From a virus: a stretch of 49,125 nucleotides of DNA. The number at the start of each line of letters is the position of its first letter. Positions within the stretch are counted from its first letter, which is position 1. The DNA lies in IMG/VR virus record IMGVR_UViG_3300037520_001156, positions 1-49,125 of that record; one strand, written 5' to 3'. The position numbers were made by a program, and so were the translations under genes. Positions 3,715 through 43,000 of this stretch are shown here, one piece after another. Under the pieces are notes generated by a model, which saw only the letters and a program-made list of their open reading frames with translations, was not told where the DNA came from and did not search any database.

Positions 3715-5766
3715 TTAAAAAAATTCTTTATTCCAATCTATATCTGTTCTCTGTGCAGAAAGCTGTTGTTGTACTGGCTGTCTTTTGTTGTGCCATGAAT
3801 GAATAGGGTCTATTGGCTGTCCTGCATCCTCTAATCGCTCAATAAATCCGCACCCTTGACTATACATTTCAAACTTTACGGGTTGCTCTAGCGGTGTTGG
3901 CTTGCCTCCGGTTTCGGTATCCTTTATTTTACGCACATGGACTTCAGTTACCATCCAATCGGTTGGATGCTGAGTCACCCTGTGAATGGTCAGAAAATCG
4001 TCTGCCTTGTTTGCTACTTTTTGTCCTCCTTCTGTATCGGCTTTATTCGGGGCAAGTGGGTACTTCTTTTCCCCGTCCTTGGCTCTTGCTGCTGCGGTGA
4101 CTGCATGGTGATTAATTATCCACCCAAAGTTGGTCTGCTGACCGTATGCCTTCATTTCGCTCAATGCTTCGTAATGGTATTCGTGGGTAGATAATTTACT
4201 GAATCCGCTCAGGTCTATTTTGAGCGAGTTATATGGGTCAACCATGCAGCACTTGAGGTCGGGGTATTTATCCCTTGCCTTCTTTGTCATGTTTATGATG
4301 TCCTTGTAGTTAAATAAATCTTCCTGAGCTTTGATAATCTTAAAATGAGATTCTATAAACTTTTTGGCTTCCGCAATTTCCGTGTCGTTCAAACTTACCT
4401 TACCTGTTAATGGCTTCCCCCAATAGTATTGAATCAAGGCTCTCATGCAGCTACCAATGCTGTTTTCGGATGAAAAGATAAGAAATTTCCAGTCGTGGTA
4501 CATTGCGGCAACCAATTCAAGCCACCACAAGAACTTTGTTTTACCTACGTTATCAATCCCGTTTACCATCAAAAAAGATGCCTCTTTGAACCTGAAGTGT
4601 TGGTCTAATGTTGGCGATCCTGTGGTCAATCCCTGCTTTAGAGTTCCATCAATTACACTTTGGATATAGCCATCATAATCTTCGGGGGTGGCTAAGAAAC
4701 TCAAATCGTTATCATCTACCTTAATTCTGGATTGGATTACCCTTGTGCTTTGATATTCTTTTTTGGGAGCGGCTTCCTTCTTCTCTCCGTAACCCATATC
4801 AAGCAATCGCCTTGATGCTTCAACAAAATCGTCATTGCATTCCAACTTAGCGAAGACAGCATATGGCAGGTATGCCTTCTGTGGCTCAAATTCTGATGAA
4901 GTAGTGAACACCGAAAACCAATTCTTTTCGTGGTTGTAATTGCCCGATGTCTGTGCGCTCGTCTGTCCGGGACGAAGAAACATCGTCTTGTTGCCCTTGT
5001 TCCCAACTACTTTCCACCCGTAACTCTGCAATAGTTGGACTACATCCCCCCTCTCGTTATAGTCATCAAATGGAGAAAGCCCCTTTGTCTTTTCTATTTT
5101 GTTTGACTTTGGAATTACTATCTCTTCAAATACTGAATTAAACTCCCGTGCTATAGAATGCAGGGTTTCTCTTTCTTCAATAGTAATTTCTGTAATGGAG
5201 CATATATCTCCGAATATAACTTCGTAGCCGGGCGAGGGGGCAATGACTATCTGTCCCCCGAACCCACGGGTTTCCAGCAATACCCTAACTGTGTCGTTCT
5301 CCTTGGCTTTTTTAGCCACCCTAATAGCCTCTGCATCGTCCTTCCCACTAATTACTTGCGCCTCGTAGGTCTTATTGTAGGTGTCCGTCCTTTCTGCTTC
5401 TGTAGTCGGTCTGTTCGCTAGCTTGATATTCCCCTCAATCTTATCACAACGATAGATAAAATGATACCCCCCGTTCTTGGTCTTTTGAACGACAAGTTTC
5501 TTTAGGAGATTAGGTTGTACTGCGTTTACCGCCAACTTATACTGCTCAAACAACTTGCCATCCAAGGAATACTTTTGGTCAATGTCAATGACCTCTACAT
5601 TACCCGAAGGAGTACCGCAAACCAAGCCTACCCCCCAACAATTAGACAGGTCGTATTTGGTTATGGCGGTCTGCCAATTCTTGACTTGAGGGATCTTCTT
5701 TTCGTTTACCGGGATAAACTGGAGTCCCTCTAATTCGTTCAGATTTTCGTAGTTATTCGTACCCAT
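3715..5766 (-). CDS. Bifunctional primase-polymerase / RecA-type replicative helicase
   Basis: A 683-residue fusion. The N-terminal prim-pol domain shows the catalytic acidic pair in EVIDID (D61, D63), a GGYHFIYR segment with H102 and a later GFGGQIVIAPSPGY block, as in phage and plasmid prim-pol proteins. A linker near residues 220-340 leads to a RecA-like ATPase with Walker A GIDNVGKTK (403-411) and Walker B CMVDP with D510; a downstream INHH segment resembles the sensor histidine region of DnaB/RepA-like helicases. It should unwind and prime phage DNA at the fork. It starts inside the end of the putative loader gene (14-base overlap), consistent with stoichiometric expression. Domain order matches known prim-pol/helicase fusions. 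Confidence 0.9.
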   Translation of the reverse strand: MGTNNYENLNELEGLQFIPVNEKKIPQVKNWQTAITKYDLSNCWGVGLVCGTPSGNVEVIDIDQKYSLDGKLFEQYKLAVNAVQPNLLKKLVVQKTKNGGYHFIYRCDKIEGNIKLANRPTTEAERTDTYNKTYEAQVISGKDDAEAIRVAKKAKENDTVRVLLETRGFGGQIVIAPSPGYEVIFGDICSITEITIEERETLHSIAREFNSVFEEIVIPKSNKIEKTKGLSPFDDYNERGDVVQLLQSYGWKVVGNKGNKTMFLRPGQTSAQTSGNYNHEKNWFSVFTTSSEFEPQKAYLPYAVFAKLECNDDFVEASRRLLDMGYGEKKEAAPKKEYQSTRVIQSRIKVDDNDLSFLATPEDYDGYIQSVIDGTLKQGLTTGSPTLDQHFRFKEASFLMVNGIDNVGKTKFLWWLELVAAMYHDWKFLIFSSENSIGSCMRALIQYYWGKPLTGKVSLNDTEIAEAKKFIESHFKIIKAQEDLFNYKDIINMTKKARDKYPDLKCCMVDPYNSLKIDLSGFSKLSTHEYHYEALSEMKAYGQQTNFGWIINHHAVTAAARAKDGEKKYPLAPNKADTEGGQKVANKADDFLTIHRVTQHPTDWMVTEVHVRKIKDTETGGKPTPLEQPVKFEMYSQGCGFIERLEDAGQPIDPIHSWHNKRQPVQQQLSAQRTDIDWNKEFF

Positions 5767-22567: not shown

Positions 22568-23338
22568 ATGCAAAACACACACCAGCAATATGTGTCTATT
22601 GATACAGTTGTAAATATGTACTTGGATCGCTCAGAGCAGGGAATCCATAAATATTTTAAGTGCTGGCAAATTGCATTTTCAGGGATGGAAGAGATGGGGC
22701 TTGATTTCTTTTATCAGGTCAAATCAGTAAAGCTCCCCGTCAACTCAAACCTTACAGTTAATCTTCCTGACGATTATCTTAATTACTCAAAGGTAGGAGT
22801 ACTGAATAGTAAAGGTGAAATTATACCTATGGGGTATAACAACAACCTTACTACATACGCAGACCTGCTTCCTAACAGGCTAGAAAAAACTCAAGATTCC
22901 ACTATACTTGACCTCATTCAGTTCAATACACCTATTTGGTATAATTACTGGAACAATGGGGCTATTTCCAATCTATATGGCATTCCAAGCGGCTCTCCCT
23001 TCGTAGGCAGCTTCAAGGTAGATAATCACAACGGAGTAATCTTATTGAACGAAAACTTCGGCTATGAGTATATCATGCTTGAATATATTGCCTGCCCAAG
23101 ACAAGGAGATGACTACTATATTCCCATCCAATTCAAAACAGCCTTAATGTGGTACATAGCATACAACGACATTGCGTTTATGCCTAATAGCCGCAAGGGT
23201 GGACTAGGGGATAAAGAGCAAAGAAAGCGGCAGTACCACAACGAAAGGCGTGTAGCAAATGCAAGGTACAGACCTGTGGACTTGGAAGCAGCATATCAAT
23301 GGAATCTTGAACAAACTCGACTTACTGTAAAAATGTAA
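22568..23338 (+). CDS. Tail-tube-like (tubular tail) protein
   Basis: The chosen start is the ATG at 22568 (MQNTHQQYVSIDTVVNMYLD), 256 residues. A longer frame beginning at 22481 runs inside the GroES gene and is rejected. Features: DTVVNMYLDRSEQGIHKYFKCWQIAFSGMEEM, KSVKLPVNSNLTVNLPDDYLNYSKVGV, and the C-terminal YNDIAFMPNSRKGGLGDKEQRKRQYHNERRVANARYRP. This is the pattern of tail-tube proteins in crAss-like phages. It precedes the very long stabilisation-like protein, now separated from it by a homing endonuclease. Confidence 0.7.
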   Translation: MQNTHQQYVSIDTVVNMYLDRSEQGIHKYFKCWQIAFSGMEEMGLDFFYQVKSVKLPVNSNLTVNLPDDYLNYSKVGVLNSKGEIIPMGYNNNLTTYADLLPNRLEKTQDSTILDLIQFNTPIWYNYWNNGAISNLYGIPSGSPFVGSFKVDNHNGVILLNENFGYEYIMLEYIACPRQGDDYYIPIQFKTALMWYIAYNDIAFMPNSRKGGLGDKEQRKRQYHNERRVANARYRPVDLEAAYQWNLEQTRLTVKM

Positions 23339-23887
23339 TATGAATCAAGAAGTCTGGAAACCAGTAGTTGGTTATGAAGGGTTGTATGAAGTTAGTAATT
23401 TAGGTAGGGTAAAAAGTTTGCCCAAAACATGGATATGCGGTAATAAAAAAAGCAAAAGAAGCAAACCTGAAACCATAGCTAAACAAAATTATTGCACGAG
23501 TAAATATCTCCAAGTTTGGCTTTCAAAAGACAATAAGCCTAAATTAATTAGTGTGCATAGATTAGTTGCTCAAGCATTTATACCTAATTTAGAAAATAAA
23601 AAGACAGTAAATCATATAAATGGAATAAAAGACGACAATAGGGTTGAAAACTTAGAATGGAATACTTTGAAAGAAAATTTAGATCATGCTTGGGTAAACA
23701 AATTAAGAACAATAAAAACTGGAGAAAACCATTGGAAAAGCATTTTAACGGAAAAAGATGTATTATACATTAGAGAAAATATAAAATATTATACCAAAGC
23801 GGAGCTAGCAAGAAAATACAATGTTACCCATAGCAATATAAGAGGAATTTTAAAAAGAAAAACTTGGGCGCATATTTAAAATGTAAT
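23330..23887 (+). mobile_element. Homing endonuclease insertion flanked by 10-bp direct repeats
   Basis: AAAATGTAAT occurs at 23330-23339, where it holds the tail-tube gene's last codon and stop, and again at 23878-23887, where it begins with the HNH gene's stop. Removing 23340-23887 leaves the tail-tube stop followed directly by TAAGTG, the start context of the next tail gene. The segment therefore looks inserted between two genes without damaging either. The repeat may be target duplication or a product of microhomology. Confidence 0.55.
23340..23879 (+). CDS. NUMOD4/HNH homing endonuclease
   Basis: A 179-residue free-standing endonuclease. NUMOD4 motif: WKPVVGYEGLYEVSNLGRVKS (6-26). HNH nuclease: H73-R74, then VNHINGIKDDNRVENLEW with N91-H92, N100 and N104. 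The C-terminus (137-179) is a helix-turn-helix with LTEKDVLYIRENI and KAELARKYNVTHSNIRGILK. It is the only such gene in the window and is flanked by 10-bp direct repeats (23330-23339, 23878-23887). It would cut an unoccupied allele at the tail-tube/stabilisation gene junction to spread itself. Base composition is more A-rich than the neighbours. Confidence 0.88.
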   Translation: MNQEVWKPVVGYEGLYEVSNLGRVKSLPKTWICGNKKSKRSKPETIAKQNYCTSKYLQVWLSKDNKPKLISVHRLVAQAFIPNLENKKTVNHINGIKDDNRVENLEWNTLKENLDHAWVNKLRTIKTGENHWKSILTEKDVLYIRENIKYYTKAELARKYNVTHSNIRGILKRKTWAHI

Positions 23888-23890
23888 TAA

Positions 23891-26800
23891 GTGATACAAG
23901 CAAGGGGATTTTCCGGTAAATTGAACCAAGACGATAGCCCTTTTAGGCTACCTGCTGGAGATTATTCGGACGCATTAAATGTAACTAGGGATTCCCAAGG
24001 CGCAGGCAATGATGAAATTATTGCGAATGTTCCGGGGAACGAGGTAGTAAATTATGCCTTCTCAGCAGGTACAAATAAAGTAATTGGCAACTACGCAGAT
24101 AAGGTTAGAAACAGGCAGTATATATTCGTATGGAATAGCAATGGCTATCACGAAATAACTTACTACGATGCTACCCTAAACACTATTGTCAAAGTAATAA
24201 AGAACCTAACAGATACAGGGAGTGTAAACGTCCTCAACTTTGATCCCTCTTGGAAGATCAACCACATAGACATAATCTATCGTGACGAAGAAGGAGATTT
24301 GCTTTATTGGACAGATGGGTTAAATCCCCCTAGAAAAATCAATGTGCAGACAGCGGTATTAGGTAATTATGGCGTAATAGTTAGCAGCTATCTTGATGTA
24401 GCCAAAGAACCACCATCTGCACCTCCTTATTGCGTTTATGAGAACGACAATACGGTTACAATTAACAACCTAAACAACAATCAGTTTAAGTTTAAGTATA
24501 GATTTGTATTTGATGACTTGGAGAAAAGCGTAACAAGCGCACAAAGCGAGATACCTATTCCCTTCAATTATACTACACCTGCTGTATATACTGACCCCAC
24601 CAAAAACTCTACTATATTTATAGTATTTCAGACAGGGGCATTTAATGTTAAAAAGATTGAGTTGTTGGCTGCTCAAAGCCAAGGAGTGACATTCTCTGAT
24701 TATTTTTTGATTCAGGTTATTGACAAGGCTGAATTGGGGTTGAATAGCAACGATGTCGCTACATTCAAATTCTACAATGATCAAGCGTACAACATAATAC
24801 CTATAAAGGAGAGCATTCAGCCTTTTGATATAGTTCCACTCAAAGCATATACCCAATCGCTACCAAATGGTAATGTATTGGATTATGGGGCTATTACAGA
24901 AGGGTATAATTTAATTGAGCCTAATTACGAAACAACTAATCTCACTTCTTTATCTTCTGAATTAAACAATAGTTATTTACTTGCCGTTGCGTATCAAGAC
25001 GCAGAACCTGCTTTTGGTTCGGGGAATATAAAGATAATTCTTGGCGGCAATGTTTCCTCAAACGACCAAGTTAATATTTTTGTTACGGTCAGCAATGTTC
25101 CATATACAATAACAGCTACTTCGGCAAACCCTCCAGACACTATTGCCGGAATGATAACAAAGCTGAGTACTTCTGCTGTTGCAGGTGGTTTTACAGTTTT
25201 AAGTTCTACTTCAAATACGCTTGTAATTAAACAAAACAATAGCTCTATCGTTAAAAAATCGGTAGTGTATTCTGGGCTTACTCCATACACCGCAAGCCAA
25301 AATTCTGTTTTTGCATACGACTGGAGTTCAAAATATGCATACGGAGTAGTTTATTTTGATGAGAAAGGACGGACTAATGGGGTGTTTACAACAATATCAC
25401 AAACAACTATAGTAGAGTCAAACGCACTTAATTTATCTACAGCATCTTTTAATTATCAAAACATAGTACCGCCATTTGATGGAACTCAAAAAGCAGTACC
25501 ATATCCTATTCAAACTATTATTGGAAATTTTACCCCAAGTTTAGGGAACACAAGATTTACAAATACCGGGGCAGCATTTAGCGGAATATTGAACATGAGG
25601 ATTGTTGGGGAATACACTTATGTAGGAGGAACGCCTTTTTTTATGGATGTAAGGATAAATGGCGTAACCGTTAGTTCTACTAGTGTATGGGCTGGAGGAA
25701 GTCCAAATCCAACAACACCTGTCCAATTTGACTTGAATATAATCCCCCTAAATGTTACATTTAATACTGGGGATTATTTAGAAATATTTGTTACTCATAC
25801 TTCTCCCGGAACTTGGAATTTTCAATTATCAACAGGTGTTCACCGGGTAACAATAACAGAACAAGACCCTCAATTAGTCGGAGGTAGTATGTTTCAAACC
25901 GATTCTTATTCTGAAGCCTTTGTTACTCCTTATTATATACCCAAACTGCCGTTAGAAAGATTTACCATTGAAAGCAGACCACCAGAATGGGCTTATTATT
26001 TTCAAATAGTAAGAACTAAAAATCTATCCAAGTCAAACTTTCTTTATTGGTGTAGCGATAGGACATATAAAGACAATGCGGCGAATACATTAGGGTATCA
26101 ATATGCTTATATATCTATTACAAATCTAACTGACGCAATAGTTGATAACCCTGAATTAAAAACATTGGGTTACGAGTTTACAGTTGGGGATAGGATAAGA
26201 TTTATCAAATTGATTTATCCCGGAACAACAACAGATGAAATTTATGTTAGTAAAGATTTTCAAATATTAGAAAGCGTAACAAATCCTACTATAAATGGCG
26301 TAGTTGTTACAGGGCAGCTTTTAAAGATATATCTTCCGACAACAAGTTCTACTTTTGATTTTGGAGGCAATGAATTTGCCAATTACTTTATACAGATATA
26401 TTCTCCTGCGCTTAGTTATTCTAACGAGTTTAATCTTTATTACGAATTTGGAGAAAGGTATATCGTAGGGAATCCCGGAACTGCTTTAGCCTACCATCAA
26501 GGCATGACGCAAAACCAAACGGCTAATTTAGTCACTCCTGCATTATATGAATTTTATAAAGGAGATGCTTATTTTAGGTTTAGGAATATTCCGTTAAATG
26601 GAGTTTTGTCTTGGAATATGACCGCTGGGCTTCAATCATCAATAGGATGCTTAGGTGGTACATTAGTAAGAGATACGAATAGCAATTCTGATTATAGCCC
26701 TATAGCTGATGTAGCTCCTGCCGCAGTTCTTTCATCTTTTTTAGCAATAATTGATACATCTAAAACATATTCCTTTTTAATAAAAGGAAATTTAAAATTT

Positions 26801-28273
26801 ATTCCTAATACAACATTTTCGGCAGGGCAAATTTTTTTAAGATTTGGAACATATCCACTCCCATCATCTACTTTAGTAACAATTGATATTGGACCAACTG
26901 TTGCTGGAGTTCAAAAAGAAATATCATACAGTATAAATTTAAATACGGCAATAGGCGTTACATATATAGGGGTTGATTTTACAAATCCAACTACAGGAAC
27001 AGTTGATATTTCAATAGTTAATTGGACAATAAATGTATATCAAAACGATAGGATAATTAGGCAAGGCATAATTGACCCCAACTTCTCTGATACATACGAT
27101 AGTTCAGCTACTCCAAACGGAAGGGCTTGGAAAGTAGAGCCAAATGCCGCCCAATTATTTAATCCTGCATTAATCCGTTTTGGCGATGAATTTCAGCCGG
27201 GTACTACAATAAATAATACTAACAGATTTTACGAAGAGAACTTTGATGTGTATGACCGTAGCCGTGGCTCTATCAAAAAGATGTTCATAGAGGGCAGGAA
27301 TCAGTACATATTCCAACAGTTTGATGTAGGGGTAGTAACAGTTCTTACGCAAATAGTTAGGGATACTGCCGGGAATCCGCTGTCTGCCCAAAGCGATAAA
27401 CTGCTTAACAAGATAGTGTACCCCTATCAGGGTGGTTATGGGATAGGCGAGTTCCCTGAGAGCTTTGCTTATGGTAAGAATGCCAAGTATTTTATAGACG
27501 GGAATAAAGGGGTGGTAGTGCGACTGGCGCAGAACGGCATGACTCCTATCTCCATAGTTTACAAAATGAATGCCTTTTTCGTTCCAAGAATAGCAAAATA
27601 TAAAGACGCATTTATTCCAACCACAGGTAAGTCAACTATATACGGGGCTTTCGATGCTTATACGAATAAGTATATAATTGCTATGGAGGAGATATACGAT
27701 TCTACGCCAGCAGTTATACAAGATGCTAAAACCATAGCATTCCTTGAAACGGCTACTAATAAAGAAGGCTTTGAGTCTTTCCTGTCTTTCTTGCCGGAAA
27801 ATATGGGTGCGCTGAACAATTTATTCTTCTCCTTCAAGGCAGGACAAATATGGAAGCACCTTACCCCCGATCCGATTTCCGGCACTCCGGCGTTCTGCAA
27901 CTTCTATAATACTCAATATTCGGCTGAAGTACAGGTGGTATTTAACGAAACGCCCCTGATGAAGAAATACTTCCTGTCCATAATGGAATCGGCTAATACG
28001 GCTTGGGAGTGTCCTGCTATAGTATCTCAGCTTGATAGCTATTCTGGAACACCCCAACTTACGGCTATTTCAGCAGCTAGATTTAAGCTATTAGAGGGGC
28101 AATATTACTCAGCCATATTTAGGGATATAAACAGCAAGGGAGGGCTTATCAACGGAGCTATAATGCACGGGAACTACCTGATTGTGCGCTTCAAAAAAGA
28201 CCAAGCCTCTACTTTTGTTTATCTGAATGCAGTATCTTTGAACTATAAGGAATCACCCCTTAATCTAAGATGA
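23891..28273 (+). CDS. Very long tail stabilisation-like protein
   Basis: A 1460-residue protein starting at GTG (23891, IQARGFSGKLNQDD). The first about 170 residues (LPAGDYSDALNVTRDSQGAG, KVIGNYADKVRNRQYIFVW, LLYWTDGLNPPRKIN near 137-151) match the start of the tail stabilisation proteins of crAss-like phages. The rest is an extended beta-rich architecture with Ig-like and jelly-roll-like blocks (Ser/Thr-rich strands from about 370 to 640, an EVYSFLIRG-like carbohydrate-type segment near 960-1050). The C-terminal part contains FDVYDRSRGSIKKMFIEGRNQYIFQQFDVGV. The start uses GTG because the insertion upstream left no ATG in place. The gene overlaps the next by ATGA. Confidence 0.72.
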   Translation: MIQARGFSGKLNQDDSPFRLPAGDYSDALNVTRDSQGAGNDEIIANVPGNEVVNYAFSAGTNKVIGNYADKVRNRQYIFVWNSNGYHEITYYDATLNTIVKVIKNLTDTGSVNVLNFDPSWKINHIDIIYRDEEGDLLYWTDGLNPPRKINVQTAVLGNYGVIVSSYLDVAKEPPSAPPYCVYENDNTVTINNLNNNQFKFKYRFVFDDLEKSVTSAQSEIPIPFNYTTPAVYTDPTKNSTIFIVFQTGAFNVKKIELLAAQSQGVTFSDYFLIQVIDKAELGLNSNDVATFKFYNDQAYNIIPIKESIQPFDIVPLKAYTQSLPNGNVLDYGAITEGYNLIEPNYETTNLTSLSSELNNSYLLAVAYQDAEPAFGSGNIKIILGGNVSSNDQVNIFVTVSNVPYTITATSANPPDTIAGMITKLSTSAVAGGFTVLSSTSNTLVIKQNNSSIVKKSVVYSGLTPYTASQNSVFAYDWSSKYAYGVVYFDEKGRTNGVFTTISQTTIVESNALNLSTASFNYQNIVPPFDGTQKAVPYPIQTIIGNFTPSLGNTRFTNTGAAFSGILNMRIVGEYTYVGGTPFFMDVRINGVTVSSTSVWAGGSPNPTTPVQFDLNIIPLNVTFNTGDYLEIFVTHTSPGTWNFQLSTGVHRVTITEQDPQLVGGSMFQTDSYSEAFVTPYYIPKLPLERFTIESRPPEWAYYFQIVRTKNLSKSNFLYWCSDRTYKDNAANTLGYQYAYISITNLTDAIVDNPELKTLGYEFTVGDRIRFIKLIYPGTTTDEIYVSKDFQILESVTNPTINGVVVTGQLLKIYLPTTSSTFDFGGNEFANYFIQIYSPALSYSNEFNLYYEFGERYIVGNPGTALAYHQGMTQNQTANLVTPALYEFYKGDAYFRFRNIPLNGVLSWNMTAGLQSSIGCLGGTLVRDTNSNSDYSPIADVAPAAVLSSFLAIIDTSKTYSFLIKGNLKFIPNTTFSAGQIFLRFGTYPLPSSTLVTIDIGPTVAGVQKEISYSINLNTAIGVTYIGVDFTNPTTGTVDISIVNWTINVYQNDRIIRQGIIDPNFSDTYDSSATPNGRAWKVEPNAAQLFNPALIRFGDEFQPGTTINNTNRFYEENFDVYDRSRGSIKKMFIEGRNQYIFQQFDVGVVTVLTQIVRDTAGNPLSAQSDKLLNKIVYPYQGGYGIGEFPESFAYGKNAKYFIDGNKGVVVRLAQNGMTPISIVYKMNAFFVPRIAKYKDAFIPTTGKSTIYGAFDAYTNKYIIAMEEIYDSTPAVIQDAKTIAFLETATNKEGFESFLSFLPENMGALNNLFFSFKAGQIWKHLTPDPISGTPAFCNFYNTQYSAEVQVVFNETPLMKKYFLSIMESANTAWECPAIVSQLDSYSGTPQLTAISAARFKLLEGQYYSAIFRDINSKGGLINGAIMHGNYLIVRFKKDQASTFVYLNAVSLNYKESPLNLR

Positions 28274-29515: not shown

Positions 29516-31057
29516 ATGCCAGTAAGATTACATCCTGAGCTTTATGGTGGTGCGTTTAAGGTAGATAGTACAGCAGCTACTGATTTTTATCTTAGGCAAA
29601 AGGCAAGAGAAAATGCTAAGGCAGAAGCCTTGGATAAATATTTTACTGACCTTCCAAAAACATTTAATCCGGCAGGCGTAAGGAAACAAGAATTACCTGC
29701 TTTTGATAAAGCAGTTTCCAATTACAAAGACTTTTCATTAATAAATAGAAAGGAACTTGCTAGTGGCAAGAACCCCCAACTTACTAGGCAGGCTCAAGAA
29801 CTAGCCGCTTTACCCATACAAATAGCGCAAGCAAGCAAAGCAGAAGGGGAATCCTCAAAGCAATTGGCTAATCTGTACATGAACAAGCCTGAAATGGTTC
29901 AAAGGTTTACTCCTAAAACATTGGGGTTTGACGATAATGGGATGCCTTTGATTGATCCTGCAACTGGGCAGAAATTAGGGATACAAGGGCATAACGAATC
30001 AATGTTTACTATTGATCCAACAGGTCAAGTGGTAAAAAATCCTGCATTCCGCTCATTGGATATTACTCAGTTTGAATACGGTCCAAAGATAAAAACAGGA
30101 AAGGAACTTGAAGCGGATATGGACCTTGCCTCCAAGGGCATAAACTACGATAAGTTTGAGTCTAAAACAAGACCAGATAATACAAGACAATTTGGACAAA
30201 TAACAGAAAGCATTTCTTCTTATAGCGACAACGCCCTGCGTAACATTGGAGATAATGCAGCAAGATTATATGATGAAGATGATTCGTTGGAATTTAGCTG
30301 GAAAAAATCTTTCCCATATAGCACTTGGATTAAAGACCCCAAAAACACAGAAACATTTAATAAGCTAAATGATAACTTCCAAAGGATTTATGGAAGGGCA
30401 ATAGATAATCCCAAAGACCTTTTTGTTGCCAATACAATAGTGAAAAAGGGTGCGCCTAAAGTAGTAGGCAAGCCAACAGAAGATGTTACAGCAAGGCAGA
30501 AATATATGCTTGGACTTAAAACAGCAGCAGATTTGAAGAAAATGTATCTTCGTCAATCCTTGGCTAAAAAAACAGAGCAAACAGAAAGTGGAGGAAATTT
30601 GCTTGATGAGATTTCTGACGGAGATATACCGGGAACTAATTATAGAGCAGAGGGCGGCGTAATTTATGACCAAAATGGAGATGAGGTTACTGATGCAGTA
30701 ATAACATTCCCCAAAGACAAAGTATCGGGTAAATTAGTCGGATTGATGGCTTCAAATGTAAAAGCGTTTGATCCTGACAATGTAGATAATTATCAAATAA
30801 CAGTAGTAAACGGGAAGCCTTCTAGTATTAGTGTAGAAGATATAGGTAGCTTTGATAGGGGAGTGGTTAAATGGATGCAAGATGTATATACAAAGAAAAC
30901 TCCCTATACAATCGAGCAGAAACCAAAGGCAAAATCAAACATTTTATCAAATTACGATGCAACCATTCAAAGTGCAATCAAAGCGTTTGCAAATAAAAAG
31001 GGATATAGCATAGATAAGGCAGTTCAAATACTCAAAAAAGCAAATAAAATAAAATAA
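29516..31057 (+). CDS. Internal virion-type protein (medium)
   Basis: The chosen start is the ATG at 29516 (MPVRLHPELYGGAFKVD), 513 residues; an earlier non-ATG start would overlap the previous gene. Long polar helices in the first 120 residues (FYLRQKARENAKAEALDKYF), then mixed beta/helix (160-440) and a C-terminal helical unit ending KAVQILKKANKIK. The TAA stop overlaps the next ATG (TAATG), a coupled start for the giant protein. Position suggests an ejected core protein. Confidence 0.6.
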   Translation: MPVRLHPELYGGAFKVDSTAATDFYLRQKARENAKAEALDKYFTDLPKTFNPAGVRKQELPAFDKAVSNYKDFSLINRKELASGKNPQLTRQAQELAALPIQIAQASKAEGESSKQLANLYMNKPEMVQRFTPKTLGFDDNGMPLIDPATGQKLGIQGHNESMFTIDPTGQVVKNPAFRSLDITQFEYGPKIKTGKELEADMDLASKGINYDKFESKTRPDNTRQFGQITESISSYSDNALRNIGDNAARLYDEDDSLEFSWKKSFPYSTWIKDPKNTETFNKLNDNFQRIYGRAIDNPKDLFVANTIVKKGAPKVVGKPTEDVTARQKYMLGLKTAADLKKMYLRQSLAKKTEQTESGGNLLDEISDGDIPGTNYRAEGGVIYDQNGDEVTDAVITFPKDKVSGKLVGLMASNVKAFDPDNVDNYQITVVNGKPSSISVEDIGSFDRGVVKWMQDVYTKKTPYTIEQKPKAKSNILSNYDATIQSAIKAFANKKGYSIDKAVQILKKANKIK

Positions 31058-34000
31058 TGCCAGTTCAATCAGAAGATTTTTCAGCATTTGACGAAGTAAT
31101 TGAAAAGGCTAAAAAAAGTCCTACTAAGGCATCGGCAATGCCACAAGAGGACTTTTCTGCTTTTGACGAAGTGATAAAAAAAAAAGTAGCGTCAACAGAT
31201 TTAACGCAGCCTACAGATGGCTTAAAGGGTGGCGTATCAATGTCAGAATCTGGAATATTTCCTTCAGCGATCCAACAAGTCAAGCAAAAGCAAGCACAAT
31301 CCCTCCCCGGTCCAATAGTAGAGGGAAAAAAGCCAATGCCTAAGCGAGAAGGAGAACCACTTCTTTTTAATGGAGAGGAATACGGTATTATTAGGAATTA
31401 CGAAAATGCATGGCTTGATTTTGCTAAAAGAGATAAAAGTCACACTAAAATAGTAGACGAAAATACTACTACAGACTTTAATCCTGAAAAGGAAATTTTT
31501 GGAATTGGTAGCAGAATATTAAAAGCAGTCGGCAATATAATACCCGGAGTAGAGCAACCTAAAGAACAAGACAAGAAATTAAGTTATTCTTGGTCAGAAG
31601 GCGCAATAAAAAATTCAGAACAAGATCTTTCCCGATACAAACAAAGGGCTGATGCTTCTCTTGCATCATTAAAGCCTCAGCTAGAGAAGATTTCTAAATA
31701 CGCTAAAGATAATTACGATCAATTTACTGATACGTCTATTTCTACAGGTCTTCCTATAACCGATGTAAATAAAATAGACAAATATTCAAGAGAATTAGCC
31801 AAAAAAATAGGTGTAAATGAAACAGGCAATTTCAAAACATTGGTATATAATGAAATAAAAGCAGCCGTTTCCCACAAATTAATTGAGCCAGAAGTAATCA
31901 AAAAATTTAAAGAACTATATCAAAAAGAAACTGGGAGAAGTTATGATGCCGATTTGACTCCAACAAAAGAAAAATTAAAAATAGGCGGTGAAAAATATGA
32001 AATAGAAAAAGGATTTGAAAAAGGAAAAGAAATTCTTTCTGGATTAAATCAACAAGCGAACACTATAAAACTTGAAGTTCAAAATAAGCAAAAGCAAGAT
32101 GTAGATATTTTAAACCAAGAGTTAAAAGGAGAAGTAGATAAATTATCTCAGCAATTTAAAATAGCAGACGAGGCATTTAAACAAAAATATCAAGGCTTAA
32201 TAGTTGATAATAAATTTATAGGAGATCAGCAACAATACAATCAATATTTAATTGATTCAGATAATCTAAAAAAACAATCTACTCAATTAGGGGCAACGGC
32301 AGAAAAGCTGAGTAATGATTTTATATCAAAGCAGCATTTAATAGCCAATAAAGCTAACGCAAGATATAGAAGGCAAATTGATGAAATATCAAGATTAGCA
32401 TACGACAAATACAACAAGGAGTTACAGAAATATTATAGCGTATTTAGGGCTAATCCTCAGTTAGCAGAAAGATCAGAAAGATTATACAAACAAGCGTATA
32501 GCGATGTTTTAAATAAAAACGAAGAATTAAAAGAAATAATTAGTAATACTAATACAAGCCCGGCAGTAAATTTTTTTAGATCTACTTTGGCTTCTTTGGG
32601 TGGAAGTATAAAAGGAATATCTACATCTATGGGCTTTGATGCAGGCTCTGTATTTGGGGATTATTTGGAAAAAAACTTTGAGGTAGGAAGTCCTGAATTA
32701 AAATCTCTTAGTGATATATTAGATTTTCAAAAATTGGCAAGGTCAGGGGGACAACTGGCTGGGTCTATGCTTCCAACTATGGCTATTGAATTGCCTGCTA
32801 TGGCTTTGACAAGAGGCATAGGTGGTGGAGTATTATCTCAAATGTTAGTAGGCGGTGTAATACAAAACACCATAGAAACTGCTGATATAGCAGGAAGAAT
32901 GAAAGCGGATGTATTTGCTAAAACAGGAGATCCAGATGCGGCTCAAAAAGCGGCAGAGGAATCAATGAAGAGCCAATATTACGCCATCCCATTCAATGTA
33001 ATTTCTACCCTTCCATTTATTGGCGGCTCTACTAAAATGATAAAGAATGTAGTAGGCAGAGTATTAGCAAGCGGAGCAGTTGAATTTTCATCAGAGCTTC
33101 CGGTTGAATATTGGCAGAATCTTGCAGAAGAATCAATAAAAGAAACAGGCACATATAAGAACGCCCTAAAGTTTCATACTAATGAAAAATTAGGGAATAC
33201 TGCATTGAATATTGCCCCTGTATTTCTTATGGGTGCGGCAGGCGAATTAATGCCAGAAGGGAAATCCGCTGACCAAAAAATGATTGAGAGAGAAGCTAAA
33301 TCTTTCGCCTTAAAAACAAAGTTTGCGGATTTAGCACCTAGCCAAAAGAATCAATTTGTATTTGATTTGGTACAAAGAAAGGGCAATGCTTTTGCTTCTA
33401 CATTTTTGACTTCTCTGTATACAACAGGTAATATAAATAAAGCAACATTAGACGAATTGGGCAAAACCCTTCAAGAGTCTAATTCGCTTATTTCAAAGTC
33501 AAAGGAACTTGGACTTACCCCTGCCGATCAAAAGATATTCATGGCTTTTCAAATGCAGTATAATGCAACGCAAAAGGCATTGGAAGGAGAGCAAGACCCT
33601 ATTTTGAAGAAGGCATTAGAAACTAAACTTAAAAGCTACGAAACAGAAATAAATAACTTTACGACTAATAAAAAAGGCAATTATGTAGTTCTTACATATC
33701 CTAACAACGAACAGTATGTATTGACTTATAGCGAAGCTGAAAATGCACTTAATAATGATGGCTTTGTAAATGCCCTTGGGAAGGGCGATATTAAGTTAGA
33801 TGCTTTTGGAGATAATGAGGCATTTAACCAAAAGGTAGAACAGACAAAGAAAGATTACGAATCAAAAACAAAATTAATTGAGCAAGGTGAAGCAGTTACA
33901 CCTACAGGTGCAGAAGCTATACCAACAGTTACTGGAGAAGCCGAAGGACAAAAAGTTGAAGGAGCAGTACCAACAGACGGTGAACCTGTGGGCGAAGGAA

Positions 34001-37000
34001 CAACAGAAGCAGCCCCTGCCGTTTTAAAAGATGTAGAGAGTACGGCGAAAGCGTTGGAGGATAGGCAATGGTTATGGGATAAAGAAAGAGTGTCGGGTCA
34101 AAATCCTTCTGAATGGTATTTCTTTAATCCTACAATAGGTAATAGACCATTTATGGGTAAAAGATTTGAAAGAACATCTACTGAAATGGTGGATATTAAT
34201 GATATTGTTCCTACTCAAAGGGAAATCTCTGCAAGCAAATCACGAAATATAAAAGAAGTAACCAACGAACAACCTAAACTTATTAAGGTTGGTGAAAAAT
34301 ATTATGTCTTTGACGGTCATCATAGAATCGCAAATGATATATTAAACAAAAAGACAAAAATTGATGCGGAAGTTTTTAATTATGACAAAGCCAAGAAAGA
34401 TGGCAGTAATCCTGAATTAGTAAAAGCAGTAGAAGAACTATTAGGTAAGCCAACCGAAGCAAAGGCAGCCCCTGCCGTTTTAGAAGGCGAGCCGGAAACA
34501 GCAGTAGGTCAAGATGTAGTTATTCAACAGATGAAGCCATTTACAGATGAAATGGTAAAAATAGAAAGGGAGTTTGAGAACAATAACTACGAAATAAGCA
34601 CAGACTACGACAACGAGATAATAGTTACTGATAAGGATGGCGAAATAATAGGTCCGGAAGACTTGCCTCCCAATCTCCTAAAACTTGCACAAGACTACGA
34701 AAAAGCAGTAGGCAAACTAGGAGAATTTGACGCATCTGCAATGGAAAGGGCTTTGGCTGAATCTAGGAAGATAGAGGAAGGTCAGGCTGAAGTGGTAGAA
34801 ACAGAACAAGCCAAATTATCGCCTGTATTAGGTAAGGAAGAAGCCCCTAAATTAAATGCCAAATCTGAAACATTTACTACTAAGTCAGGTAAACAGACAA
34901 TTAAAAAAGTAGGTGATAAACTTATAGTTGCCGATGCAAAAACAGGCAAGGAAGTTTCCAAGGGAACAGAAAGAAAGGCATTAAAAGAATGGGAAGAAAA
35001 TTTTGATTTTTTGGCAGGAGAAAAAGCAACAGAACCAAACTTTGAAGGAAGTTATCGTGATTATTCTGAACACGCAATAGAAACAAGCCAAAATCCATTA
35101 GAAGTAGCAGAAATTTATATTGGAGAAAAAGAAGCACCAGAAAGTTTGAATACCCGTGAAATGCTAATTGCAGAGTATGGTGGCTTACAAACAACATCAA
35201 AATCTTTTGCTGAAAATGCCGATAAGAATATCATTACGCTATCAATGGCTAAAACCTATTTTAATAAAAAATCAGGTAGACCAATTGATGTTATAGCGCA
35301 TGAAATATCTGAACATTATGGAGTAGAAGTTACGCCAGAAGATGTTACCAATTTCATGATTAGATTTCCAAATGGCAAGGTAAAAGCAAAAGAATCAGTA
35401 GTTGCTATAAAAGCATCTAATAAATTTAAAGAACTAACCGGATTAAATTTAACAGAAGCATTAGCCAATAGGATAATAGATAAAGAATTTAAAAAACTAA
35501 AAACAAAGCAACAAGAACTATTAAACAAAGAGTATGAATCAGCCCAACAACTTGAAGATGACTACTGGAAAGCCTTCGCAGAAACTGACGGATTTACAAA
35601 AGAAAGCACTACTAGTAAAATTGAGCCGACAATCGAAGCCAAACCTGCCGAAGCAGCAAAGGTAGAGCCTACAGAAAAGGTAGAGGAAGCCCCTGCCGGG
35701 AAGCCAAAAGTAGCCCCTCCTTCAAAAGCCGCAGAAAAACTGAAGAAAGCAAAAGAAAGAAAAGAGGCTGCTGTAGCCCCCGGAATGCCAAAAGAGGGCA
35801 TCAATGTTTCCAACAAATCTGATCTCGTTGATTTACTAGACAGAGTACAAGAAGAAAGCAAAAAGAGAATACTTCAAGCAGCCCAAAAAGGAATCAACAC
35901 CCTGAAGTCTATCTTCCCTGATATGGATATTTATGTCCACGAAGATGCAGACTCCTACAATAAGGCGATGATTGAATTTAAAGGGAGAAAGAATTCAAGA
36001 GGCAATTTTTCTTTTTGGGAAGATGAAGACGGCAAGACAAAAGGAAGAATAGACATTAACCTAAGTAATGCCGTTGAAACCACGGTAGCCCATGAGATAA
36101 CCCACGCTATCCTGTTAAAACAATTTGGAGAGAATCCTGCCGCATACAAACAATTTAGGGACAGAATATCCAAGGTTATCAGAGAAGACTTGGACAAAAA
36201 ATTGGTAGAATTTGAGAATAGATATGCAGGACTAGAGGTAGCCCCCGAAGAATACCTCACTCAGTTGACAGCCATCCTTGCAACCAAAGCAGAATCTGTT
36301 ACTTACAAACCTACCACACTAAGAAAAATAGCCGCAATAATCAATGAATTAGTAACACGGATTACTAATGGCAAGTTCTCTCCATTCAAATCAGAAGCAG
36401 ACTTCAAGAATTTCGTTGATTTTCTTAATCAAGTGTCTGGGGCTATAAGGGAAGGTGCTGAAATAAATTTACAAGAAAAAGAGCAAGGCGATTCGGTAGT
36501 AAGTGGGGTAGTTTCTTTAGAAAAAATTAAAAACAAATCAGATCTAGGATTTAAAAAATTTGATATTGGCTGGGAAATATCTTCAGAATCAGGTATTGTT
36601 TTAAATGTTCCCCAAAATAAAAAAACATTATACGATATAGTTGAAAAGTCTGGAGGAGCAATTGTAGTTATAAATTCAGATGCAACCGGGATAGGGGTAA
36701 CAAAAGACAAGGATTTGTTGCAAGGAGGTATAGGATATACATTTATAGCTGAAAATGTAAACGACAATATAGGATTTGCAGCAAGCAACGATGGCAAAAT
36801 ATCTTCATTTTATGAGGCTGTTTTAGACGCAGCTAATAAAAGAGATGCAGAATTCCCGGAGATGAAAGGAAAGCCCGTAGCAGTTTTTGTAATGGTGCAA
36901 ACTCCTGCCGCTATGTTTGGCAATGCTTATTCTGCTGATTATTTTGGAAGAGTATTAAATAAAATAACTACTAGTAAATTATTTAATACTACAGAAGCCA

Positions 37001-40000
37001 AAAAGGAAATTATTGAATTTATAGAAGATTATAAGGCTAACAATAAAACGGGCAAAAAATACGCAAATTCACTAGACAAACTTTCGGATTTAATAAGAAC
37101 AACTGATTTTTCAAAAAAGGAATCATTAAAAAAGATAGTTGATTTATTAATTACCAATAGGGCTTCTAAAGAAGATAAATCAGCCAAGTTCGGGTTTGAT
37201 ATTAGGAGATCATTTTTTGAGAAATTTTTTGTAGGAGTAGGAACGGTAAAAGAAGGTGCGCCTGCTAGAAATTTAAGATTAAAACTTAAAGAAAAAGGGT
37301 ACAATCACGATGGATTTTTTAAAGAATTTGGAGATAAAAATGTAATGTCTTTATTGGAGGGAGATACGCCCGGAAGAAAATTATCTGATGGAAATTTCAC
37401 CTTGACCGGATTTTTTGTAGATCCTAATATAAGCAAAGAGGATTATGTCCAAAATAGCAAAAAAGGCACTTATCAACACAAACAATTTAATTCTAAGTTT
37501 TATGGAATTAATCCTTTTGTTTTAGATGGCAAATATTATGTAGACAAAGTGTTTCCAGAAGCAAGATTTGTTTCTAAAAAAACAGGGGAAGAAGTTCCGG
37601 TGCAAGTTGCAGCAGCAGGTTCTTTATATCCAAGGACTCAAAAATCTGCACAACAAATAATAGAAAGGGCAAAAAATATAAAATCAAAAGCCCAATTAGT
37701 ACATGATGAAACAGGATTTATTTCTGTTCCATCTATGATTGAAATAGTTAAAAGCAATAATCCAGATTATTTAGGTGGAGTAATGCAGCATATTGAGGAG
37801 ATGGGAGAGAAATTAAAATCAGGGAAGGTAAATGCTAGGGATGTTGCAAAGTCCTATCTAATGGCAGTTTCCTCTATTAGATCTGGCGATATTGGGATTG
37901 AAAAATTTGAATCAGCAATCAATAAAAAAGTAGATGAAGTTTTTTTAGAACCAAATAATAAGATAAGAACAGAAGGCGCAATGGCTTTCTTGTTAACTAC
38001 CGATGAGGGTAAAAGATTTTTGAAAAATGTAGAATCTGGCAAAATAGACGAAATAGACAGGCAGTTTATTTCAAAATCAATGAAGCCATTTGGAATGTTT
38101 GGTGTAGGTGAATCTAAATTCAGCAACATTTTCGGAGGAACTGAAAAAAATCAAATTAACCTTACAAACATAACAGAATTTAATTCTTTGCTAAAAAAGG
38201 GCATTAAAAATGAATCCGAATTATTTGACGCTATAGTTAAACTAAAGGGTATTTCTCAGGCTAAAGTAGGTTTTGTTTCTAATTTTTTAGGCATAGGCAC
38301 AAGGGGGGTTATAGATGCAAGAGAAATACAAGGCTGGCTTAGAGGTGCAGTTTTTCAAGGAGAAAGAACGGCTAAAGAAGCAGAGATAGAAAAAGAATTA
38401 ACCAAATCCAATAAATCACTTTCTCCACTACAAAAAGAAATATTAAGCAGGATGCGTGCAGTAGGGGAAGCATTTGGCATAAACCCTTTACTTGCTGAAT
38501 ACATTGGTCATCATATGATATGGGATGCAGTTGCTAAAGAAAAAACAACGCATAACGGGTTGTATTTAGCGATGTCCCAAAATAACAATGAATTTTACAA
38601 GAATTTAAATAAAATAAAGTCAAGACAAGATATAGAGGCATTCCAAGGCTCTCCTTATGAATTTGAAGAATTTTTGATGAGTAAAATAGGCACAGGAGAG
38701 GGGTCGCAAAGATTTGGGTGGGGGCTATATTTTTCAGATTTAAAAGAAATAGCGGAATATTATGCTGATGTTTTAACAAAAAAATTAGGCAAAAAGGGGA
38801 AAGGGAAAATTTACAAGGCAACTCTTCACGAAGGGAAGACCCCCGATCAATACACATATTTGGAGTGGACTGAACGCACTAAAAAAGAAATTAGAAATAG
38901 GATATTAGAGCAATTTATACAAGAAAATGATATTTCAAGAAAAGATTTAAATAAACTAATAGAAGAGGGAATACAATATCTTGATGCTTCAGAAGCAGGT
39001 GAACTTTTTAAAGAAACTGGAATCCCCTTTAAAAAAGGGATGGTTATAAAAACTTTGTTAGATGATGAATATCCTGCTAGCGGTAATTTAATTTATGATG
39101 CATTACAGCGTTATTTTGATAATAATCCTCAGAAAGCATCAGAATTTTTACTTCGTGCTAAAATTGATGGTATTAAATATCCTGCGGAAAGCATAGCCCG
39201 TGGAGCAACTTCGGCTACGGCAAGAGGATATAATTATGTTGTTTTTGACGAAAATGCAATTACAATAAAATCAAGACAAGATATAGGCGAAGACTATTCT
39301 GAAATGAAAGATATAGTCCAAGACTATCTTGATGAAGGCATATCATTAGAAGATACAATAGAGAGCATTACAGATGAATTAGGAGATTCCTCACAAGGAA
39401 CAAAGGATTTAATTACAAAGGCATATAATGAACTGAAGGGCGGTAAGAAGCCGGAAGAGAAAGCTGCCGAGCCGGAAGAAGCACCTAAGCCTAAAATTGA
39501 GAACAAAGAGGCTAAAACAGAATTTGACAAATTAACAAGCGATATACCTAAGTCTGGAGAAGTTAGGACATATTTAAGCGGAGAAACTATTGAGAAATAT
39601 GAAGGAGAAAAGGCACGGAATGAACAAGAGGTATTGGCTCAACAACTACGACCTGCTCTTGAAAGGGGTATAGATATAATAAAAAAGGCTAAGGAACTAT
39701 TTGGCGACAATTTTGTAGCCGGGCTTCTTAACTATTTAGAAACCGAAAATCTTCCCCCTGCAAATAAGGCATTGATATATGTTAGCCTTGAAAATGAACT
39801 TGCAAAACAGAAGATAGAAAACCCGTCTAACGCTCCTAGTATTGAAAAATTACAAGACTTAGTAAGGGCGGCATCTCAAGCATATCTCAGAAGCAATTCT
39901 TTGGCTATTAATTTCGGGCGGTTACGCAAATTTGCTGAGGTGGGTTATGATGTAAGCAAGATGACCGATAACTTCTTCTCTACTCAACAACTTGAGGATA

Positions 40001-43000
40001 AGAAGAAAATAGAAGAAGCCATCCAAGCAACATCAACTGATATCAACAAAGCCGCAGAAGAGAAAATAAAAGAAGAGGAGGAAATAAAGAGAAAAATAGA
40101 CGAAGGGGTTGAATCAGAAATAGCCAAGTTATTTGAGCAGTTTTCAGAAACAAAGAAAAAGGTCATAAACAAAACCGTGTCTGCCTTAAATAAGGCAATG
40201 GCTAAACTCTCTTCCAAATCTTATAAGTCAGGGTTTAAGTCAAGGTCTGATCTTGACGAAGCAATGTCTAGGGGGTACAAGAAAATGGAGAGGGCGTTAA
40301 AGGCTGGAATTAGTCCGGCAGATGCTATAGAAATAGGCATAAAAGAAATCAAGTCAATTTACGAAAAAGAGTACGGAACGACTTGGACTGAGGAGGCTGA
40401 ATTTAGAAAAGATGTTACCGATGCCTTAGTATCGGAAGGAGCAATGGAGTCTAAAAAAGAAGGCTCTGAAATCAAGCGGTTAGAAAAAGAAATACTTGAT
40501 TTAAATAGGCAAATTGAGAAAGGTCAGAAGGACAAGTTTGAAAAGAAAAAGACCAAAGAAAGCGAAGCCCTTGACCGATTGAGGGAGGAAAAGGCAGAGA
40601 AACAAGCTATCCTTGAGGCTCTTGATCCTACTCCCCGGATGTTCATAGAGAACGCATTAATTGAGCAAGGCTTTGGCAGAGAGATAAATGTCAAGACCAA
40701 AGAAGGTATTGAAAAAAGAATGGTTCTTGACTGGAAAAAACTTGCCGGAGCAGAGGGTAGCGTGGACAATATTAGAAAAAGAGTAGAAGCCGCATTAAGA
40801 GATAAAGGATACAGCGAAGAGCAAATTCTGCGGATGCAAGATGCATTTGTAGAGGAGTATAACAATCTTGCCGCTTCAATAGCAGAAAAAGCTCTCAATG
40901 AAATAAACGCTAGGAATAAAAAGGCAGTTACCCCTGAGCAAAAAAGTGCCGTAAGGAAGTTGGTAGAAATGTACAATTACGGGCTGTTTGATAAAGACCC
41001 TAGCGAGTATGAAGTTGCTTTGGCAAAAACATTAGGGTTCACCGGAATGAGCGTAGAATCCCTGAAAAAAGTATCAGAACTTGGGGAAGCAATGTCCAAT
41101 CTGTTTAATTCAAATTTTGAAGGACAGCCGCTGAATGAAAGCCAATTAAGGACTGCAATACAAGTTATTGAGGAGCAGATGAGGGTCATACTTAATATGG
41201 AGGCTTTAAGGGAAGGGGGTAATTTATTTAAGTTGACTGAATTGACAAGGATGTACATGGATGCATCTCAGAGGATGATGCTAAATACATTTAAGCAAGG
41301 TCTTGAGAACCCGATCTCAGGTCTTCTTGAAAGATTCTATTCTTCAATAGCCTATGCCGGGAAAATACCCGAAACATTAAATGCCCAACAAAGAAAGTTA
41401 GCAAGGGATATTTATAAGGAAATGGTATTGCAAAAAGGCTTGGGATATGGCAATGTGGGCAACGCATTTATTACTACAGGGAATATTGATGCCTACGTTA
41501 ACAAACTGCCTGATAGCGCACTAGTTCAAGGTATTATGTCCGTGGCTATGGGTAAAACAATCTTGGATGCGGTAGATAGCTCGTATAAGGCAAAAATTAC
41601 CCAGCAGAAATTTACCTATAACTTGATAAAAATTCTGACAAAAGACAGGATAGTAAATGGCAAAGAGGTAAAAGGGATGTCTGTAGATGAAGCCAAAAAA
41701 TATGTGGCAGAAAAAATATCAGGTCAGTCATTTGAAAAGGCTAAGGAAACGGCAAAAAATATAATTGACAATGTAAATAGGAGCGCAGGAAGAAAAATAT
41801 TTAATGACAGCCCTCAGTTCGTGAACAGATTGGCAACCGATATAGTAAATGCCGCTTTGATAAACGGAGAAGCCATAACTGAAGAAATGGTAACAGCGGC
41901 TTACAATGCAGCATATAGGGCAGCAGGAAGGGGATTAGGTCATGTTTCAAACAATGTGGTTACTACAGCCGTAAACACCGCAACTGGGAAAATAGAAACA
42001 GACAGAAAAAAAGCAATAGCGGAAAAAAAATATAAAGATGCAATATACTTAAACTTGTTCTCTGTATTGTATAGAAATATCATAAATCCATTTGTTGGAG
42101 GCGGCACAAACTGGATAGTTTTGAAAGCTGAAAAAACTGGGTTAGGGTTAATTAGTGGATTAATTTCTATGGCTAGGAATAATACCAAGATTAACATGAC
42201 CACAGAAACGGGCATGAAAGAATTGGAAGATGCTCTTTACAAACAAATGAAAGATAAGGATAAACTTACTAGGGGCGCAATAGGAGGGTTGATTACTGCC
42301 CTTACATTTATGCTGATTAAAGGAACAGCGGCAGACGATGAATATGAAAAATGGATAAAAAAGAATCCTTGGGCTAGGAAATACATAAATATTTTTACGC
42401 CAGAAATAGCACTTTTAATGATTGCGGCTAATGCTTCAGAAAAAGATTATATAAAATATCTTGAAGGGACATTAAACATGGGCGATCAGTTTGATAAAGG
42501 CAAAATGGCTTTAAAAGTTTTGTATTCAAAAGACCATTCAATACCTCTTGGAACGCTATTAGGCTCATCTATTGGGAATCCCATTCCTTGGAGATTAGTC
42601 AGGGATGGGCAGCAGCTTTGGGCAGGAGCAACAGGAGGAGAACCTTATGTAGTATCGCCCGTAAAGCCCACGAATTTTGCGGAAGCGTATTTGAAGGGTG
42701 GTATGTTTGACTTCTTTAAGACTATGATGAGTGATCAACCTAAAGAAAAGAAAATAGGCGAAAAGTTCCCAGAATCAGAAGGAATTAAATGGCTTGAGAA
42801 AAACAATGTAGACTTCCCCAAGTTGCCTGATTTAACAAAAATAGAGGTAAACACAAATGATAAGCATCCTGAAGGCAAAATGACCGCAGAAGAGCAGTCC
42901 AAATTCAAAGAAATTTGGGAAAAAGAAGCAGTTAAAAACATTGACGAAATATATAAAAAAGTTGAAAAAACAGGGTTTTCAATAGACAAGGAGAAATTCA

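Follow-up and report, generated by a model that had tools for sequence, protein, structure and literature searches.

We analysed a 49,125-base virus record, here called the window, which carries terminase and portal genes together with a gene resembling the crAss-type muzzle gene. Three consecutive genes on its plus strand form the locus of interest. The upstream structural gene, P2 (22568–23338), encodes 256 aa and matches the virion structural protein family phrog_13977 (E 6e-19). It is followed by P0001 (23340–23879), a complete, free-standing HNH endonuclease gene of 179 aa whose ATG lies 1 nt after the upstream stop, and then by a muzzle-like gene of 1460 aa with a GTG start (23891–28273; phrog_14478 virion structural protein, E 7.5e-68). 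The frames on both sides of the HNH gene are complete, and in relatives that lack this gene (empty relatives) they are adjacent to each other. By direct reading and exact search we confirmed that the 10-nt sequence AAAATGTAAT frames the HNH gene in two exact copies, as a preliminary description of this DNA had reported. The left copy (23330–23339, plus strand) takes in the final codon of the upstream gene together with its stop. The right copy (23878–23887, plus strand) covers the final 2 nt of the HNH stop, and 3 nt separate it from the muzzle start. Excision of the resulting 548-nt unit leaves the upstream stop, then 4 nt (TTAA), then the muzzle GTG, and the compact junction with intact tail genes that had been predicted is indeed obtained.

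Judged from its sequence, P0001 is predicted to be a free-standing (intronless) HNH endonuclease of the I-HmuI type. A NUMOD4 region (residues 4–61; 23349–23522, plus strand; Pfam E 2e-14) and an HNH_3 nuclease region (residues 72–113; 23553–23678, plus strand; Pfam E 2.5e-11) both score above the Pfam cut-off. The protein also matches the phrog_59 HNH endonuclease family (E 1e-50), and its best PDB match by sequence is I-HmuI (1u3e, E 1e-11). The predicted model has a mean pLDDT of 95; 1u3e is again its top Foldseek match (E 5e-9, TM 0.56–0.58, rmsd 8.0), followed by I-PpoI chains at E 0.03 and weaker. In the alignment with I-HmuI, H92 and N113 stand opposite H75 and N96, and N91 takes the place of D74 (catalytic residues as named in the accessible part of PMC12724721). 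Both H92 and N113 are invariant in 26/26 aligned HNHs, all of which carry NUMOD4 and 25 of which carry HNH_3. In the model, the C-terminal region (residues 138–171; 23751–23852, plus strand) folds into three helices (138–146, 153–159 and 164–171) and is probably a DNA-binding helix-turn-helix; a CENP-B_N match in this region (E 4e-4) falls under the Pfam cut-off. An Rfam search of the window gave no match and thus revealed no known intron family. Scanning viral contigs with the window HNH as a single protein gave zero matches, and an alignment-based scan of the same kind of contigs returned distant relatives, of which the best 80 of at least 566 were taken.

P2 is probably a portal-adjacent ring protein resembling R1, an assignment that draws on its predicted structure and gene order. 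Its model is of low confidence (mean pLDDT 59), and its top PDB hits come from chains in the unique vertex/portal assembly of phicrAss001 (Foldseek E 2.5e-7 and 6e-7, TM 0.36–0.41). The order of P2 and the muzzle-like gene parallels that of gp43 and gp44 in crAss001, where gp43 ends 1 nt before gp44 (muzzle); gp43 is named ring protein R1 in the accessible part of PMC10172136. A sequence profile comparison between P2 and crAss001 gp43 gave no match, and R1 is therefore a probable, not a proven, name for P2. A PDB profile search with P2 produced one match, at E 0.61, and a search of phage records with the P2 protein produced a single distant match, in Maribacter phage Panino. For the muzzle-like protein, the match to PF25729 (crAss_MUZ_C) has an E of 2.5e-4, under the cut-off, a sequence search against the PDB gave no match, and a scan of genome contigs yielded 37 pattern matches and zero relatives. 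We also observed, 3′ of the tail genes, a single open frame of 4027 codons (31057–43140).

We assessed the occupancy of the ring/muzzle boundary in 121 contigs with a P2 gene, window included. These are a sample from scans with the P2 and muzzle proteins, comprising the best 80 of 107 P2 relatives and the best 80 of 82 muzzle-start relatives (79 loci). The set omits three muzzle relatives with no P2 gene in reach (L219, L223 and L235), and 36 loci from contigs already present did not add to the count; L183, taken as a new contig, shows no difference from L069 in the 300 nt compared. An HNH gene lies at the boundary in five of the 121 contigs listed, namely the window, L007, L017, L031 and L041. 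The L017 gene is cut by the contig end, which leaves four complete insertions. The empty sites that the preliminary description expected in related phages were found: both genes could be placed in 119 of the listed contigs, where the spacer measures at most 60 nt in 100 and 191–832 nt in 16, and the remaining three are the window, L031 and L041 (the muzzle start was not located for L007 and L017 in this count). A profile of the 26 HNHs detected no HNH in the 16 longer spacers and did find those of the window, L031 and L041. Searching with the window HNH gave one match each in the L007, L031 and L041 records and no match anywhere in the available sequence of L008, L028 and L043. The conserved domains, the intact neighbours and the empty relatives together uphold the view of a homing-endonuclease-type HNH gene inserted cleanly at a gene boundary.

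The boundary also accepts accessory genes other than HNH. A gene of 86–92 aa is present in six of the nine non-HNH spacers that were translated (of the 16), those of L043 (4772–5034), L012, L039, L040, L045 and L046, and the motifs ...SIYG... and ...ILIE... are shared by eye. Other HNH genes, 39–42% identical to that of the window, occur elsewhere near tail genes, upstream of the ring gene, in L012, L040 (reverse strand) and L211.

We then compared the junctions themselves. The GTG start of the downstream gene had been noted and attributed to the insertion; the start is real, but its attribution does not hold, since five of the seven close empty relatives (L002–L006) carry GTG at the same codon. 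The other two, L001 and L008, have ATG. The closest empty sites read TAA-CCA-GTG or TAA-CAA-GTG and the window, when joined, reads TAA-TTAA-GTG. This exact joined sequence is absent from the relatives found, which are distant, with empty sites 60–72% identical to the window over 100 nt on either side (65–72% for L001–L006 and 60–67% for L008). The sole match of a 22-nt joined-site pattern among viral contigs, in L082, has no real similarity in the neighbouring sequence and was taken as chance.

The bases of the left repeat copy also end the orthologue of the upstream gene in empty relatives, as AAAATGTAA in L002 and as AAAATGTAAT in L008. L007, whose HNH is 60% identical to that of the window and occupies the same boundary, has an 11-nt version of the repeat, AAAATGTAATA, at both ends of the gene. 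Joining L007 at this repeat gives AAAATGTAATAAATGAT; over 17 nt, its empty sister L008 has exactly this sequence at the site. L031 and L041 carry HNHs of the same group at the ring/muzzle boundary; here the repeat in the end regions compared is at most 7 nt, and the muzzle ATG lies 1 nt after the HNH stop. With the repeat present in two of the four complete insertions, it is not the general insertion footprint that had been suggested. Our preferred reading is that the stop-codon region, which in sister phages lies immediately in front of the muzzle start, was duplicated to give the repeat. This duplication would have occurred once, in the HNH sublineage of the window and L007, to which the repeat is confined in the phages examined. 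The right copy would then be the original lead-in to the muzzle start, which could explain why the repeat has been retained.

To place the occupied phages relative to each other, we compared trees of the HNH proteins and of the P2 gene. The HNH tree comprises 72 rows; matches spanning fewer than 140 residues were excluded, a 29-aa fragment (L158) was included, and loci L163–L241 were excluded except for L211. The HNHs of L007, L031 and L041 are the nearest rows to that of the window, and the four share one branch, in which both inner pairs are starred. Support for this branch is moderate (95/75), with a bootstrap that had not settled. The L017 HNH pairs with one from outside the ring/muzzle boundary (93/82), and all five boundary HNHs may lie on one side of the tree. 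The P2-gene tree, built from the 52 of 81 rows with at least 52.5% identity, shows the five occupied phages scattered, requiring 5 changes, and they form one group in 0/200 bootstrap trees. Shuffled occupancy labels require about as many changes (mean 4.8), so the scatter expresses a lack of clustering and does not imply its cause. In this tree L007 is sister to the empty L008 and L031 to the empty L028. The scattered phages and the site-bound HNH group speak for a possible horizontal spread into one site, but the parallel divergence described below would also fit an old insertion with losses. The preliminary description had considered the insertion in the window recent; this is not borne out, as the nearest HNH is only 60% identical and the flanks show no local jump in identity.

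A local replacement tract appears in one near-identical pair of contigs, L041 with the HNH gene and L043 without it. Identity between them is 99.8% across 450 nt of the P2-gene body and 95–100% across the initial 420 nt of the muzzle gene, and it falls to 77.1% in the last 240 nt of the P2 gene. Further upstream they are ~85% identical where aligned, with one poorly aligning stretch, and they diverge again within the muzzle gene. At its boundary L043 has a 263-nt spacer holding another small gene. Among the contigs listed, 63 pairs have a body identity of at least 95%, and L041/L043 is the only pair that differs in HNH occupancy; the last 240 nt of the P2 gene are at least 87.9% identical in the other 62 pairs, which are not independent of each other. 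This first count was limited to pairs with at least 50% ungapped identity; local alignment with no such filter raised the number to 66 pairs and left the same outlier. No donor of the L041 tract was found among the available loci, the best being L043 itself (78.5%), followed by L209 (75.5%). The last ~235 nt of the L041 P2 gene look like a co-conversion tract, of which this is a single case, and the cut beside the L041 homing gene was perhaps made within the ring gene. When L041 positions 4001–5750 are compared with L043, identity is mostly 96–100% per 50 nt around the HNH site, the HNH segment excepted. The L041/L043 similarity thus appears to be a recent exchange patch centred on the HNH site. 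L031 resembles L028 upstream of the HNH gene, and the opening ~180 nt of its muzzle gene (5311–5490) resemble L027 (96, 91 and 86% per 60 nt), a hint of a second exchange beside an HNH gene.

These data suggest that the HNH gene is, with high probability, an intronless homing endonuclease of the I-HmuI type that was inserted between the ring and muzzle genes and is copied by cutting and repair. Homing of the boundary HNH is well supported, though not proven, by the sequence comparisons. During a mixed infection, the enzyme would introduce a cut or nick near the ring/muzzle boundary of a related phage whose allele is empty. Repair templated by the HNH-bearing genome would next transfer a copy of the gene, along with some flanking DNA, presumably in the direction from occupied to empty genome. 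The stop-codon region may have been duplicated, giving the 10-nt repeat, at the first arrival of the window/L007 HNH ancestor at the boundary, and the right copy would have preserved the original sequence ahead of the muzzle start. A more specific version of this scheme, which we put forward only tentatively, is that the HNH lineage is bound to a single boundary in the tail operon of crassviruses, moves with the 3′ end of the ring gene and thereby rewrites its C-terminus, with the repeat kept in the window/L007 sublineage. Homing would repeatedly rewrite the ring-protein C-terminus because the moving HNH takes the ring-gene 3′ end with it (~235 nt in L041), and the repeat would be kept because it preserves the context of the muzzle start and permits exact reversal.

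Alternatively, the insertion could be old and vertically inherited, followed by many independent, precise losses with little or no present homing, and by repeat-aided slippage in the window and L007. P2-gene and HNH identities run parallel (81 and 60% for window–L007, 74 and 73% for L031–L041, and 55–57 and 49–55% across the pairs), and the two trees have the same shape for these four phages; since the identities of HNH and phage run in parallel, we retain this history as a real, if doubtful, alternative. The repeat in two lineages could permit exact excision, and the L008 junction is the remnant expected after excision from an L007-like genome. Against this, many losses would be required, given a short spacer at 100 of the 119 listed sites, the repeat that could guide them is missing from half of the complete insertions, and the L041/L043 tract is a replacement of the HNH gene plus its flank, not a simple deletion.

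A separate question is whether the repeat is informative about insertion at all, as it could have arisen by chance or by convergence on an A-rich stop/start context. AAAATGTAAT occurs a third time in the window, at position 37337, where 0.59 copies are expected and at least three were seen in 3/100 shuffles, and a general repeat finder with a minimum length of 10 did not list the 23330/23878 pair. The site is AT-rich and the HNH stops at the boundary read TTTAA or TTTAG. Among stop-codon neighbourhoods in the same window, 8/351 pairs share at least 10 nt, and simulated 40-nt ends reached a 10-nt match in 4/4000 trials; from these two rates, chance alone would account for the repeat in roughly 0.1–2.3% of cases. 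A flanking repeat arising by chance is therefore unlikely, though not absurd. The 10-nt match between the ends of the HNH gene is the longest among 27 hand-picked window genes (the runner-up has 8 nt). In a comparison of 65 of the 72 HNHs, end repeats of at least 10 nt occur in just the window and L007, compared with 18/4160 cross pairs, and these two genes are related to each other and both lie at the ring/muzzle boundary. Moreover, the right copy in L007 runs into the native muzzle start exactly as the sequence does in the empty L008. We consequently regard an uninformative repeat as improbable on balance, and favour the duplicated stop-codon region.

Two further explanations account poorly for the locus. 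The HNH protein could be a working phage protein, such as a packaging or tail nuclease, and not a mobile gene; it is encoded among structural genes, and HNH proteins serve packaging in other phages according to the accessible part of PMC12724721. Its absence from most of the examined relatives that have both neighbours, together with a homing enzyme, I-HmuI, as its nearest solved relative, makes this very improbable. A target-site duplication left by a transposase-like insertion would place a short direct repeat around a compact unit, as seen here, but one HNH gene fills nearly the whole unit and the five inverted-repeat pairs listed for the unit and its surroundings include none that brackets it; with L031, L041 and 63/65 HNH genes lacking such a repeat of at least 10 nt, this mechanism was rejected as even less credible.

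In conclusion, crAss-like phages from metagenomes provide a natural allelic series for a free-standing homing gene, with empty and occupied sites and one near-identical pair among them. Elements of this type are well known; this one is situated at the boundary between the ring and muzzle genes. The titles and abstract beginnings of the open PubMed Central articles listed by our literature searches describe no HNH gene at this boundary, and the accessible part of PMC10448857 does not mention crAss. In crAss001, gp37 and gp41 (L243: 402–1076 and 2818–3519) are annotated as group I intron endonucleases and likewise adjoin tail genes, from which crassvirus tail regions seem to be repeatedly invaded. 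However, gp37 and gp41 lie at other places, and gp43 and gp44, 1 nt apart, have no HNH gene between them.

I-HmuI is an intron-encoded endonuclease. The window HNH resembles it (1u3e) in its NUMOD4-like start and in an HNH core with H75 and N96 aligned, and differs from it in being free-standing, with no known intron family, and in a C-terminus that aligns poorly. The free-standing mob and seg endonucleases of T4 occupy gaps between conserved genes, several of them promoterless, target neighbouring genes and leave co-conversion tracts, and mobE starts at the stop of the upstream gene (accessible part of PMC2988022). The window HNH is also intergenic between conserved genes and starts 1 nt after the upstream stop; in contrast, the T4 enzymes are HNH proteins with other C-terminal regions or GIY-YIG proteins, and several of their targets are established. 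In lactococcal Skunavirus phages, I-HmuI-like HNHs cluster by insertion location, distinct HNHs may share a location, core genes near busy HNH locations are less similar, and marker exclusion was tested (accessible part of PMC12724721). The HNH group of the window similarly follows insertion location, although in other phages and at another site, the crAss-like ring/muzzle boundary. Our findings suggest that genes of this kind are a driving force for exchange at structural-gene ends in this phage order, in agreement with the reports on T4-like phages and Skunavirus.
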